NCBI GenBank assembly: GCA_903832775.1
Contig: CAILCX010000176.1
Coordinates: forward strand, 1 to 64,000
DNA length: 64,000 nucleotides
From: an uncultured Methylobacter sp.
Lineage (GTDB): Bacteria; Pseudomonadota; Gammaproteobacteria; Methylococcales; Methylomonadaceae
Direction: 5' to 3'
The stretch's first letter is position 1. Every line of letters starts with the position of its first letter. Of this stretch, positions 2 to 47,126 are shown piece by piece. The notes beneath the pieces were generated by a model. It was given only the letters and a program-made list of their open reading frames with translations. It searched no databases and was not told the origin of the DNA. The position numbers were made by a program, and so were the translations under genes.

Positions 2-679
2 AGAATATTAAATACTGTTTTCCTGCTTACTATAGGGTTGGGATATCTTGCGGCACTCGCTAATATGTATTACACCCATCAAGGGCGTGATGGGAAAGCA
101 GGGTTATCTATTGAAGATGTGGTCATTAGCTATCATGGTTCAAACAGTGAAACCCGGTTAGGTACAGCTATAAAAGGTATTATGGAGCCGAATCTCAAGT
201 TTAAAGGTGATCAGGAGCTTATCTTGCATTGGATACAGCGTGGCGCTGATGAACCCGAATATAACGAACTAATCGCACCCATATTAAATCGTGACTGTAT
301 TTTGTGTCATACGCCAAGCATAAATCCTTCTTTACCTGATTTAACCCATTACGCTACGGTGTCTGAAGTCGCTCATGGCGGCGGAGCATCAATACCAACT
401 TTGGTGCGGATCTCTCATATCCATCTGTTTGGTATTGCCTTTATTTTGTTTTTTATAGGCAAAATATTTTTGCTGTGCGACCTTAATATTTTTGTAAAAA
501 GAATAGCGGTCATTATTCCTTTTGCGGCTATGTTGCTGGATGTGGTGTCATGGTTTATTACTAAATCTACCCCTTCATTTGCTTATGCTGTTGTTTTCAG
601 TGGCGCATTAATGGGTATTTCAATGGGGCTACAAATTGTATTAAGTGTTTATCAAATGTGGTTCTATTCAAGGAAATAA
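2..679 (+). CDS. membrane-anchored monoheme c-type cytochrome, 5' end outside window
   Basis: The reading frame is open to the left edge of the window; the ORF-track start is a TTG inside the first membrane segment. The upstream in-frame codons read RILNTVFLLTIG and match the first helix of the paralogue at 46401-47126, so the true N-terminus lies outside the window. After helix 1 comes a periplasmic domain with one heme c motif (CILCH), then a conserved SHIHLFG stretch opening helix 2, and two more helices before the C-terminus. The order helix - heme domain - three helices is the same as in the paralogue, which directly follows the MtrA/MtrB genes. I infer an inner-membrane electron carrier facing the periplasm. 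The partner proteins are not visible here. Confidence 0.75.
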   Translation, partial: RILNTVFLLTIGLGYLAALANMYYTHQGRDGKAGLSIEDVVISYHGSNSETRLGTAIKGIMEPNLKFKGDQELILHWIQRGADEPEYNELIAPILNRDCILCHTPSINPSLPDLTHYATVSEVAHGGGASIPTLVRISHIHLFGIAFILFFIGKIFLLCDLNIFVKRIAVIIPFAAMLLDVVSWFITKSTPSFAYAVVFSGALMGISMGLQIVLSVYQMWFYSRK

Positions 680-42366: not shown

Positions 42367-42714
42367 ATGAAAAATTTATTTAATTTGTTGCTTAAAACTC
42401 TCAGTGCAATGTGTTTTACGATGTTTTGTTTATCCGCTCATGCAGAAGTTGATGCGGATGGCGCTAAAGACTTTGCCAAACAAAATAATTGTTTCAGATG
42501 CCATGGTGTCGATAAAGATAAAGACGGTCCTGCATTTACCAAGAGTGCCGCAAAGTTCAAAGCCGATCCTAAAGGCGAAGAAAAACTGTTACACCATCTT
42601 ACTTCAGGCGAAAAAGCCAAGTTCCCTGACGGTCATGAAGAAGATCACATGATCTTAAAATCGGACGACCAAAGTAAAATCAAAAATCTGGTTGACTGGA
42701 TTTTGTCTTTATAA
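42367..42714 (+). CDS. small class I-like c-type cytochrome
   Basis: 115-residue periplasmic cytochrome with a signal peptide (ending near SAHA), a CFRCH heme site at residues 42-46 and a later methionine (EEDHMILK) that could be the sixth ligand. The fold is that of short monoheme class I cytochromes. It is 213 bp upstream of the decaheme cytochrome gene on the same strand. I infer that it shuttles electrons to or from the outer-membrane conduit. Start ATG at 42367. Confidence 0.85.
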   Translation: MKNLFNLLLKTLSAMCFTMFCLSAHAEVDADGAKDFAKQNNCFRCHGVDKDKDGPAFTKSAAKFKADPKGEEKLLHHLTSGEKAKFPDGHEEDHMILKSDDQSKIKNLVDWILSL

Positions 42715-42927
42715 GTCTCAGTTATCTTGAAGATCCATTTTTTGTCTTCAATTCAATCATTTCAATTCATCCGGATCGGGTTGGAACCTTGGGCAACCAC
42801 TCAAGTAGCTTCAACCCACCGTTTAAAACGTTAACTATCTCACCGGTTTGGTAGCATAAATTTTCTATGTGCCTTATCTTGCCCTGGCTTTACTTGTGAG
42901 CCATAAGACTTACTGGACAATTGTCTA

Positions 42928-43878
42928 ATGAATATATTACTAAAAATAATCCTCCTGTTTGGACTTTTAACGATGTCTGTCTACGCTGAAAACACAGCGG
43001 CTCCAGTAAAAGCACCTACAGCAAAGCCATCCGATTCTTTGAACAAAGATTCTGCCTGTACCAAGTGTCACGATGAAAACGAAAGCAAACCCATTTTGGC
43101 GATTGCCCAGACCGCACATGGCAACAAAGCCGATTCACGCACGCCTTCCTGTCAGTCTTGTCATGGCGAGAGTGAAAAACATATGAGCAATAAAACCGTT
43201 GCTCCCGATGTTATTTTTGGCCTGAAGAAAGGCGCTTTTTCGCCAAATGAAGCCAAAGATCAGAATACGGCGTGTTTGACTTGTCACGACAAAGACCAAA
43301 AACGTACTCATTGGCAAGGTGGTGCTCACCAGGTCGCTGACGTAGCCTGTACCTCGTGCCACGTAACGCATACCGCCCATGACAAGGTACGTGACAAACA
43401 GACGCAACCCGAAGTTTGTTTTACCTGTCACAAAGATCAACGTGCGCAAGTTAAAAAGTTTTCGCATCATCCGATAGGCGAAGGCAAAGTCGCTTGTGCT
43501 GATTGCCATAATCCGCATGGTTCAGCCGGTCCAAAAATGCTGGTTAAAAATACCGTTACCGAAACCTGCTACACCTGTCATGCGGAAAAACGCGGACCGT
43601 TGTTGTGGGAACATCAGCCAGTAACAGAAGATTGTACCAATTGCCATACGCCACATGGTTCTAATATTACACCGTTGTTGAAGTCACGGGCCCCATTCTT
43701 GTGTCAGGAGTGTCATGATGGTCCGCATGCTAGTAGAAGTCCAGTTGCAGAAAGTGCTGAAGGTATTCAAGGTGGTGCTACTAGCGCTAGTGCGAACACT
43801 ACGGGTAGAGCTTGTATGAATTGCCATAGCATGGTGCATGGTTCGAATGATCCTGCCGGCGCACTTTTGCATCGCTAA
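42928..43878 (+). CDS. periplasmic decaheme cytochrome, MtrA/DmsE/PioA family
   Basis: 316 residues with a signal peptide ending VYAEN and exactly ten CxxCH heme sites: CTKCH, CQSCH, CLTCH, CTSCH, CFTCH, CADCH, CYTCH, CTNCH, CQECH and CMNCH. This is the DmsE/MtrA decaheme family that inserts into an MtrB/PioB barrel and carries electrons across the outer membrane. The gene is followed at 19 bp by the barrel gene. Ten hemes and about 300 residues match MtrA of Shewanella. Direction (reduction of external acceptors or oxidation of external donors) cannot be told from sequence. Confidence 0.95.
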   Translation: MNILLKIILLFGLLTMSVYAENTAAPVKAPTAKPSDSLNKDSACTKCHDENESKPILAIAQTAHGNKADSRTPSCQSCHGESEKHMSNKTVAPDVIFGLKKGAFSPNEAKDQNTACLTCHDKDQKRTHWQGGAHQVADVACTSCHVTHTAHDKVRDKQTQPEVCFTCHKDQRAQVKKFSHHPIGEGKVACADCHNPHGSAGPKMLVKNTVTETCYTCHAEKRGPLLWEHQPVTEDCTNCHTPHGSNITPLLKSRAPFLCQECHDGPHASRSPVAESAEGIQGGATSASANTTGRACMNCHSMVHGSNDPAGALLHR

Positions 43879-43897
43879 ACTGTATTAGGAGACACTC

Positions 43898-46258
43898 ATG
43901 AAAACTCAAGATAAAGAAATGAAAGTCAGTGTTTTGGCTTTAGCGGTGCGTTGCGCATTGATGGCAGCGGTTACTTTCCCGTTGGTTGCTCAGGCAGATG
44001 ATGATGCGTATGCCTTGACCCATCCGACTAATATGGTTGATTTTGGTGCCTTGTATTCCAGTCAAAGTTCGGCCAAGTTCGGTGAATATAATGGTCTGAA
44101 CGAAGAAGGCTTTTATGGTTTGGGCGGTTTTGATGTGCGCGGCGGCAAAGGCTACGATAGTGCAAATAGTGCCTTACGTTGGAAACTAAACGGAACTAAC
44201 CTTGGCACTACTTCCCGTAATTTGGGGGCCTCAATTAGCGAGCAGGGTAAATGGAAGATAAACCTGGGTTATGACGAATTGCAACATAACATAACCGATA
44301 CTTATCAAACTCCTTTTCAAGAAGATAGAGGTGGAAATAATTTTACCCTTCCTGCTAATTTTGGCAAACCTGCTGGTACAGTCCTTACTAATACAAATAA
44401 TTTAGGTGCATCTAGGTTAAATGCGTTCCATACTGAAAAGGAGTACACCACACGCAGGAACTCCTCTCTTGGAACTTCCTATACATTCGGAGAGCAATTA
44501 AGTGCACAGATTGATTATAATCATCTAGAACAGTCTGGTGCCAAGCTTATAGGCACTGGGGCACAAGGAGGTATAAATCTCGCTGGAACTAGTACAGGTA
44601 AAGCCGAAGCAGTTAATATCCTGTTTAACCCTACCAGTTACAGTACGGATAATATAACTGCAGCTCTGAATTGGAAAGGTGAAAAGGCTCATCTAAGCGG
44701 AGGTTACTATGGATCCATCTTTCATGATGATTATAACAGTTTGAGTTGGCAAAATGGGGTAGCCAGCGCTGCCTCCACTTGTACGGGGTCAGGTTGCTTT
44801 ACAAATAACACTATGAGTACCGCTCCGAGTAATAGTTTGCACCAAGCGAATCTCTCCGGTGGATATGATTTTTCATCTGCCACGAAGTTGGTTGGCGGTT
44901 TTTCTTACGGTTATAACACACAAAACTCCAGTTTCGCACCAACCCTCATACCACAAGCAAGTGGAATTGCATCTAGTATGATGTGGGGGAGCGGATATCC
45001 ATCGTCGCTGAATGGAGTTGTGGAGACTACGCATGGCGACTTAAAACTAACCAATCAAAGTATAAAGGATTTGACTTTAAGCGCCGGATTTAAATTCAAT
45101 GAGCGTGACAATAGCACGGATTCTTCTATCTACCGTTATAAAGCCATCAACGATGCTAATGCAGCAATCCAAACTGCAGTTCCTGTTACAAATTACACTG
45201 GAATTAATACACCGTATAGCAACAGAAAAACACAATATGAAGTAGCCGCTGCTTATCGTCTGACCAATGCACAGAATCTGCGTTTAGCCTATGAGCGTGA
45301 AGATATCAAACGTTGGTGTAATGGTGTGATAGGCGGTGCTCAATGTATTTCAAGTCCAACCAGTGAGGAGGATAAAGTTGGTTTAACCTATCGTTTAAAA
45401 GTGTTTAATGATGTAAATTTTAATGCTGGCTATAGTTATGCCAAGCGTAACGCGCACTTTGATCATAATTTCCTTGCTAATGATGGAAATCGATCAATCA
45501 CAAGCGTTGGAGGGTCTCATTCGGTTCTTAACGGAGCTGATTTGATTGGTTTCGTAGCGTATCCTTATGCTAATCGTAATCAGAATCTGGGTAAAGCTGG
45601 CATCAATTGGCAACTTACCCAAAAGATTGATTTTGGTGTGAATGGAAATTACAAATATGACGATTACGATGCAATGTTAGGTGTCCAGAATGGGCACTCG
45701 GCGGGTGTAAGTGTGGATGCTGCTTATAATTATGAAGAAAACAGTAGCGTTTCTGCCTATTGGAGTTGGCAAAATGGGAAGAGAAATTTGCGCAATGGAA
45801 CTGGGCCAAGTAATACGACTGCCAACGTATCAAATATTGGTATATGGACCAATCAGCTTGAGGATAACAGTAACACCGTCGGCTTACTTACCCGGAATGG
45901 TGGTTTGCTAGGTGGCAAACTGGAAGTTATAGGTGATTTTTCTTATGCTCTTGACTCTTCAGCCTATTCAACTCAAGTTCCCTATCTTTCAACATGCAGC
46001 GCAGCAACTACACTTAGTTGTGGAAATGTGTCACCAATTAAGAACGAGTTGATTAGTCTAAAACTTACCGGTAACTATAAAGTCCATAAAAATGGAAAAG
46101 TGGCTTTGGCTTACATATATCAGAAATTAAATAGCAATGACTATTTTTATAATGGTCAGCAGTATGGTTACACGCCAAGCACTCTTGTGCCGACCAACTT
46201 ACAGCCTCAGGATTATACGGTTAATGTAGTCGCGCTGTCTTACAGTTTGGCGTTCTAG
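43898..46258 (+). CDS. MtrB/PioB family decaheme-associated outer membrane beta-barrel
   Basis: 786-residue outer-membrane porin-like protein with a signal peptide ending VAQADD and many alternating aromatic/polar beta strands. It ends in a C-terminal strand with terminal phenylalanine (VVALSYSLAF), typical of barrel proteins. The N-terminal VDFGALYSSQSSAKFGEYNGL matches the MtrB/PioB opening, though the N-terminal CxxC of Shewanella MtrB is absent. Directly after the decaheme gene, it forms the sheath of the conduit. AGGAG lies just before the ATG. A 52-bp palindrome follows. Confidence 0.92.
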   Translation: MKTQDKEMKVSVLALAVRCALMAAVTFPLVAQADDDAYALTHPTNMVDFGALYSSQSSAKFGEYNGLNEEGFYGLGGFDVRGGKGYDSANSALRWKLNGTNLGTTSRNLGASISEQGKWKINLGYDELQHNITDTYQTPFQEDRGGNNFTLPANFGKPAGTVLTNTNNLGASRLNAFHTEKEYTTRRNSSLGTSYTFGEQLSAQIDYNHLEQSGAKLIGTGAQGGINLAGTSTGKAEAVNILFNPTSYSTDNITAALNWKGEKAHLSGGYYGSIFHDDYNSLSWQNGVASAASTCTGSGCFTNNTMSTAPSNSLHQANLSGGYDFSSATKLVGGFSYGYNTQNSSFAPTLIPQASGIASSMMWGSGYPSSLNGVVETTHGDLKLTNQSIKDLTLSAGFKFNERDNSTDSSIYRYKAINDANAAIQTAVPVTNYTGINTPYSNRKTQYEVAAAYRLTNAQNLRLAYEREDIKRWCNGVIGGAQCISSPTSEEDKVGLTYRLKVFNDVNFNAGYSYAKRNAHFDHNFLANDGNRSITSVGGSHSVLNGADLIGFVAYPYANRNQNLGKAGINWQLTQKIDFGVNGNYKYDDYDAMLGVQNGHSAGVSVDAAYNYEENSSVSAYWSWQNGKRNLRNGTGPSNTTANVSNIGIWTNQLEDNSNTVGLLTRNGGLLGGKLEVIGDFSYALDSSAYSTQVPYLSTCSAATTLSCGNVSPIKNELISLKLTGNYKVHKNGKVALAYIYQKLNSNDYFYNGQQYGYTPSTLVPTNLQPQDYTVNVVALSYSLAF

Positions 46259-46274
46259 TCAAAAAAACAGCCTT

Positions 46275-46326
46275 ACTTTGTGGGAGCGACGTCTACGTCG
46301 CGACGTAGGCGTCGCTCCCACAAAGT
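46275..46326. repeat. REP-like 52-bp palindrome after MtrB/PioB gene
   Basis: Two 26-base arms meet without a loop (ACTTTGTGGGAGCGACGTCT ... and its complement), with a single mismatch. The GTGGGAGCGAC core resembles gammaproteobacterial REP elements. It lies 16 bp after the barrel gene stop and before the membrane cytochrome gene. It could reduce read-through and set different expression levels within the cluster. Confidence 0.9.
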
Positions 46327-46400
46327 TACGCTACTACGAAGTACAAAGCTATACTTGCAGTAACACACTATATATCAACAACTTTCAGGCGAAAAAATAA

Positions 46401-47126
46401 ATGATCGAACCACGGGATGATTTAACCTTAGGCAAACTTTCTTTGACTTACCGGGTGTTGTTTACCGGCTTTTTACTGGTGATCGGTTTGGGCTTGTGTA
46501 TGGCCGGTGCCCAGATCATGTTGACCCATGGCAAGGCTGACGGCAAGGCCGGCTTGTCGATGGACGATATTGTTTACAGCTATTACGGTAACCGTTCCGG
46601 TTCCAAACTTGAGTCCGCGTTAACCGGCAAAATGAAAGACAAAGCACCGGCTGACGTTAATTTTATGTTGATTAAATGGGTGCGTGAGGATGCACCGGCT
46701 GCGGAATGGAGCAAAGTCGGGCCTTTATTGGAAAAGCATTGTGCAAATTGCCATGATTCGGAATCGGGTTTACCGGAAGTAGCCAAACTTGAAGTAGCAA
46801 AAGGTATGGCCGAAATCGATCATGGTGCCAGCATCGCCTCGTTGACAAGGGTTTCTCATATCCATTTATTTGGCATTAGTTTTATCTTTTTGTTTGTCGG
46901 CTGGATTTTCGGCATGGCAGAGTTTGATCAACGCTGGAAAGTGATTTTAATTTCTACCCCTTTTGCCTTTCTGGTATTGGATGTCGCTTCCTGGTGGCTG
47001 ACCAAATTCTGGCCCGAATGCGCCTGGTTTACCATGATCGGCGGTTTAGGTTACAGCCTGGCGGCGATGGTGATGTTTGCCACTTCTTTTGCCCAAATGT
47101 GGTTGCCGCGCTGGACCAAGAAATAA
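46401..47126 (+). CDS. four-helix membrane-anchored monoheme c-type cytochrome
   Basis: 241 residues: one N-terminal helix (about 15-40), a periplasmic segment with a heme c site CANCH at residues 114-118, then SHIHLFG opening helix 2 (about 153-172), helix 3 (about 180-200) and helix 4 (about 208-235). Paralogue of the truncated gene at the window's left edge. The SHIHLFG histidines are identical in both and might bind a second heme or contact quinone (inference). Following MtrA/MtrB, it is a candidate inner-membrane partner, since no CymA-type NapC/NirT cytochrome is visible. Confidence 0.82.
   Translation: MIEPRDDLTLGKLSLTYRVLFTGFLLVIGLGLCMAGAQIMLTHGKADGKAGLSMDDIVYSYYGNRSGSKLESALTGKMKDKAPADVNFMLIKWVREDAPAAEWSKVGPLLEKHCANCHDSESGLPEVAKLEVAKGMAEIDHGASIASLTRVSHIHLFGISFIFLFVGWIFGMAEFDQRWKVILISTPFAFLVLDVASWWLTKFWPECAWFTMIGGLGYSLAAMVMFATSFAQMWLPRWTKK

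Follow-up and report, generated by a model that had tools for sequence, protein, structure and literature searches.

The four plus-strand genes at positions 42,367 to 47,126 of the window (the whole 64,000-nucleotide stretch of Methylobacter sp. DNA analysed here, from a genome of 3.86 Mb that is 99.6% complete) probably encode an mto-type conduit across the outer membrane of a Methylobacter-like methanotroph, a reading to which we give a probability of about 0.6, and in which a four-helix monoheme protein, X, would replace the NapC/NirT-type inner-membrane link (ImoA, MtoC or CymA). The cluster itself is already known. A paper of June 2026 reported the four-gene set from a methane-fed bioanode, in an enriched Methylobacter MAG, with synteny conserved in Methylococcales (PMC13322032). 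There it forms genes 02045-02048 of Methylobacter_1, a putative EET/PCC cluster comprising a periplasmic monoheme cytochrome, an MtrA-family decaheme, an MtrB/PioB barrel and a four-TM monoheme protein, without OmcA/MtrC; the gene types match ours and their order and orientation are conserved, the likeness being one of types and order. That paper reads the cluster as serving outward electron transfer and nowhere mentions Mto, Sideroxydans or Cyc2 (PMC13322032). The genes of JABFSH01 (L225), among the carriers listed there, match those of the window at 68-87%, and previous papers on Methylobacter MAGs had already reported MtrAB/MtoAB/PioAB homologues as well as Cyc2 (PMC6344600, PMC12810054). 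What is new here is the mto identity of the cluster and the family to which X belongs; our literature search found no earlier description of the cluster as an mto variant whose fourth gene has been exchanged, and none of an association of X with Cyc2.

Few parts of neutral-pH iron oxidation, or of electron exchange by methanotrophs, are as poorly known as the inner-membrane step. If X does connect the respiratory chain with both MtoAB and Cyc2, a single protein family could serve as a marker of that step and as an object on which to test it, and the published 'methane to anode' cluster would be recast as a conduit of the iron-oxidiser type, for which Fe(II) uptake is relevant besides outward transfer. 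The interpretation given in the original prediction, that of an extracellular electron transfer cluster, is partly supported overall, as it missed both the Mto frame and the prior publication (PMC13322032), and its word 'complete' for the cluster would hold only if X is indeed the inner-membrane link.

Identity of the D, A and B genes

The first gene, D (42367..42714, plus strand), is an mtoD homologue encoding a 115-residue protein with one CXXCH motif (PF00034, 30.5 bits). It is followed on the same strand by A (42928..43878), encoding an MtoA/MtrA-type decaheme cytochrome of 316 residues with exactly ten CXXCH motifs, by B (43898..46258), encoding a 786-residue outer-membrane barrel of the MtoB/MtrB/PioB type, and by X (46401..47126), encoding a monoheme cytochrome of 241 residues with four predicted TM helices and one CANCH motif at residues 114-118. 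By their coordinates the genes are separated by 213 bp (D-A), 19 bp (A-B) and 142 bp (B-X). All four open reading frames, and the family scores, agree with the gene types first proposed, and these scores together with the same gene order in many other genomes exclude a chance arrangement. The flanking genes encode a DUF1348 protein, a decarboxylase, a UbiE-type methyltransferase and further unrelated products.

A scores 289 bits against the DmsE-family decaheme model TIGR03508 (cut-off 192). For B the scores are 427 bits with PF11854, the model of MtrB/PioB barrels, and 435 bits with TIGR03509 (cut-off 240). Both proteins also match PDB entry 6R2Q, an MtrCAB structure whose chain names are wrongly assigned in the entry, A aligning with the MtrA chain (3.9e-70) and B with the MtrB chain (5.6e-16). 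These matches bear out the MtrA/MtrB-type conduit of the original prediction and the homology of A and B to the Shewanella proteins. The N-terminus of A resembles a signal peptide. In phylogenetic analysis A is placed within the MtoA tree, beside betaproteobacterial MtoA, and its closest MtoA relatives come from Methylobacter and other Methylococcaceae MAGs, which agrees with the earlier view of the host as a probable methanotroph.

The best PDB match of D is 4XXL (8e-38; 56% identity over 111 residues), the MtoD of Sideroxydans lithotrophicus, a cytochrome with a potential of +155 mV whose heme ligands are two histidines, H47 and H95, of a rare type (PMC4412085). Residues H46 and H94 of D align with these ligands and are invariant in our alignment (A1), and the distal-His motif is present in 85 of 87 D homologues; bis-His ligation by H46 and H94 is predicted for D. 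On identity and ligands a generic class I cytochrome was dropped in favour of MtoD, and D is by homology a periplasmic monoheme cytochrome c of this kind. The locus thus has in common with mtoD-mtoA-mtoB-imoA of S. lithotrophicus ES-1 the conserved bis-His ligands of D, a decaheme of the MtoA tree, the barrel and the order D-A-B-fourth cytochrome. It differs in its host, a methanotroph, and in the fourth gene, which is X here and ImoA, a NapC/NirT tetraheme, in Sideroxydans. As the fourth gene is not of the NapC/NirT type, we regard the locus as an mto-type variant and not as a canonical mto cluster.

X in place of the NapC/NirT tetraheme

The D alignment, scanned against named bacterial genomes, yielded 80 MtoD loci. 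The gene after B is X in all 24 Methylococcales loci where this slot is readable and a NapC/NirT tetraheme of the ImoA type in 29 of 29 other loci, from Sideroxydans, other Gallionellaceae, Comamonadaceae, Rhodocyclaceae, Rhodoferax and Dokdonella (NapC/NirT identity confirmed as PF03264 in L275 and L255); X and NapC/NirT occur together in none of the 80. A further 11 A-B loci have neither, the contig ending no more than 400 bases past B in nine of them. The split follows taxonomy and so reflects few events, not 53, and it may be a single historical one. Gene order is conserved across Methylococcales, which removes absence of synteny as an objection to the original prediction.

The window's genome contains no NapC/NirT protein (PF03264), which rules out a CymA encoded elsewhere, and no OmcA/MtrC (TIGR03507), which rules out a surface decaheme elsewhere, so the lack of both, first remarked in the cluster, extends to the entire 99.6%-complete assembly. 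This sets it apart from Shewanella MtrCAB/CymA, in which both are present; in the Mto systems of iron oxidisers, likewise, surface decahemes do not belong to the cluster. A true NapC/NirT protein is missing from 16 of the 17 other genomes with X clusters (one has it), and all four control genomes with tetraheme-type clusters are NapC/NirT-positive. The pairing that the original prediction called unusual is therefore so for the fourth gene, as X replaces the tetraheme, but not for the small cytochrome, which is the MtoD of the Mto pathway.

The MtoA proteins of X-type clusters form two lineages, one of them close to betaproteobacterial MtoA, and a single origin of Methylococcales MtoA was rejected (one-clade tree, AU p 0.007, some branches being long). 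The X proteins of the clusters form one clade, though they accompany these two separate MtoA lineages, and the nearest kin of this clade are orphan X copies in other Methylococcales; the X tree was built by a rapid method, and branches are long in parts of both the MtoA and X trees. The simplest account would be one recruitment of X, after which the A-B pair was exchanged once while X stayed in place.

Variants of the arrangement are also evident. Tandem X copies follow B in some Methylococcales (L121, L125 and L127), and L121 also has a third X copy, together with a Cyc2-like gene, next to the conduit. X is kept in L050 (G008:C59) and L142 (G224:C201) with the barrel gene reduced to a remnant, L050 also being without D and A, a pattern suggestive of a conduit that has decayed or been deleted.

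The X family and its Cyc2-like neighbours

Searches with X gave nothing above cut-off in Pfam or NCBIfam, no significant sequence match in the PDB and no fold match at E 0.001. Its AlphaFold2 model (mean pLDDT 77.7) shows four long membrane helices (residues 15-42, 145-171, 177-201 and 205-234) surrounding a heme domain placed in the periplasm, and M78, C114, C117, H118, H153, H155, D194 and W198 are invariant among 121 family members. The family is resident in Gammaproteobacteria, its genes in GC-rich loci being detected by tblastn. A second paralogue, 39% identical to X, lies outside the cluster at 2..679 on the plus strand, truncated by the contig start, and falls in the tree within an X subclade of which many members adjoin Cyc2-like genes. 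Numerous X paralogues occur as orphans, away from any conduit, and for this reason a family devoted to extracellular electron transfer alone was rejected.

In seven or more genomes a heme-less homologue of the X membrane module, bearing the same SHxH motif, adjoins a protein of the FMN_bind type (L015, L288-L290, L293, L294 and L301, the pairing being Pfam-confirmed in L015 and recognised by motif only elsewhere). This association suits a membrane redox module, which the four-helix part of X may well be. At L015:5591-6648 the heme-less homologue adjoins a 493-residue protein in addition to the FMN_bind protein. X itself adjoins, in other Gammaproteobacteria (L104, L110, L169, L172 and L188), a six-heme protein of ~580-600 residues with repeated cytochrome c domains.

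Cyc2 is an iron oxidase in which cytochrome and porin are fused, with the motif AXPXFAR[Q/K][T/Y]-CXXCH (PMC8406198). Cyc2-like genes are present in 12 of 61 Methylococcales genomes, one match being a fragment. Where the match is substantial, in 11 genomes, an X paralogue directly adjoins the Cyc2-like gene in 10; G060 lacks this pairing, and the copy in G031 has an internal stop. The Cyc2 motif was found in X-adjacent genes of relatives, several with S for A at one position, and the pairing extends beyond Methylococcales to two families (L105 and L107). The window's genome differs from these clusters in having no Cyc2 match, X here accompanying MtoAB. X is best read as a putative exchangeable inner-membrane link for outer-membrane conduits, here one of the Mto type. 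More tentatively, and at somewhat less than even odds, X would be the founder of an unrecognised inner-membrane electron-transfer family in which a four-helix SHIHLFG module bears a single c-heme. This family would be the shared inner-membrane partner of two unrelated outer-membrane conduits, MtoAB and Cyc2, and in methanotrophs would have taken the place of the NapC/NirT tetraheme.

Electron route and direction

In the mechanism we propose, the ten-heme MtoA would thread the MtoB barrel and move electrons across the outer membrane, MtoD would act as a diffusible periplasmic monoheme carrier, and X, its periplasmic c-heme domain mounted on the four-helix membrane module, would most likely pass electrons to or from the ubiquinone pool. 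Since no recognised menaquinone pathway is encoded, MenD matches in the window's genome being below cut-off and MqnA/D absent, the quinone is probably ubiquinone. By the route we favour, electrons from an extracellular reductant such as Fe(II) would enter through MtoAB and then pass by way of MtoD to an oxidase and by way of X to ubiquinone. The role of X as inner-membrane link, its reaction with quinone, the order of transfer and the direction are all points that we infer. The place of D is uncertain because in Sideroxydans MtoD binds neither MtoA nor ImoA, though PmcA does (PMC13390432), and an additional periplasmic carrier besides D may be required.

We consider the chances about even that flow is inward or reversible, uptake or two-way flow being favoured by the high-potential MtoD, by ubiquinone as the likely sole quinone, and by the kinship with Mto and Cyc2. 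A serious though less probable alternative is an outward conduit in which X would oxidise ubiquinol and pass electrons through D to A and B, disposing of those derived from methane. Ubiquinol has a potential of about +0.1 V and, with no recognised menaquinone pathway, would in that case be required to reduce minerals with potentials close to 0 V or lower. The high potential of MtoD (+155 mV; PMC4412085) likewise argues against outward flow, as does the linkage of X relatives to Cyc2, an iron oxidase (PMC8406198). The published type of outward reading envisages that, under oxygen shortage, the acceptor would be Fe(III), humics, Mn(IV) or an anode, and it draws on a methane-dependent current at a poised anode, where the four genes were found in just one enriched Methylobacter MAG (PMC13322032). 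That anode was held at +600 mV, however, which is thermodynamically undemanding, such that almost any carrier could donate to it, and the outward reading in that work is a proposal. Outward transfer is also consistent with experiments in a heterologous Shewanella host, in which MtoD and PmcA could accept electrons from CymA and donate them to MtrA (PMC13390432).

It is unlikely that X is instead an accessory, either a heme sensor or an assembly factor, with electrons running from MtoAB through MtoD to cytochrome c oxidase and no quinone step. Such a role would fit the orphan X copies of many genomes and the suggestion that MtoD feeds a high-potential acceptor, for example an oxidase (PMC13390432), as well as the 142 bp gap between B and X, which contains a potential hairpin. 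This is a long, near-perfect inverted repeat, GTGGGAGCGACGTCTACGTCGCGACGTAGGCGTCGCTCCCAC (46280..46321, assigned to neither strand), present in one exact copy in the window where shuffled sequences give an expectation of 0; it may act as a terminator or attenuator of the DAB transcript, from which it may separate X, or it could be a mobile repeat. In some relatives, however, the B-X gap is just 9-24 bp, and an accessory role sits poorly with the conserved c-type heme motif, with the possession of the imoA slot by X in 24 of 24 loci and with the adjacency of the X family to Cyc2. A DmsEF-type respiration, in which A and B would belong to an extracellular DMSO reductase system, is brought to mind by the DmsE name that TIGR03508 carries and is highly improbable, as that system has DmsA/DmsB with its conduit, no molybdopterin reductase genes are found in our cluster or among its neighbours, and D and the tree group A with MtoA.

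A different MtrAB cluster, which does include a NapC/NirT tetraheme, is present in other Methylococcales (L133-L135, L137 and L047). In these clusters a cytochrome of ~312 residues, with an EB_dh domain in L137, replaces both D and X.
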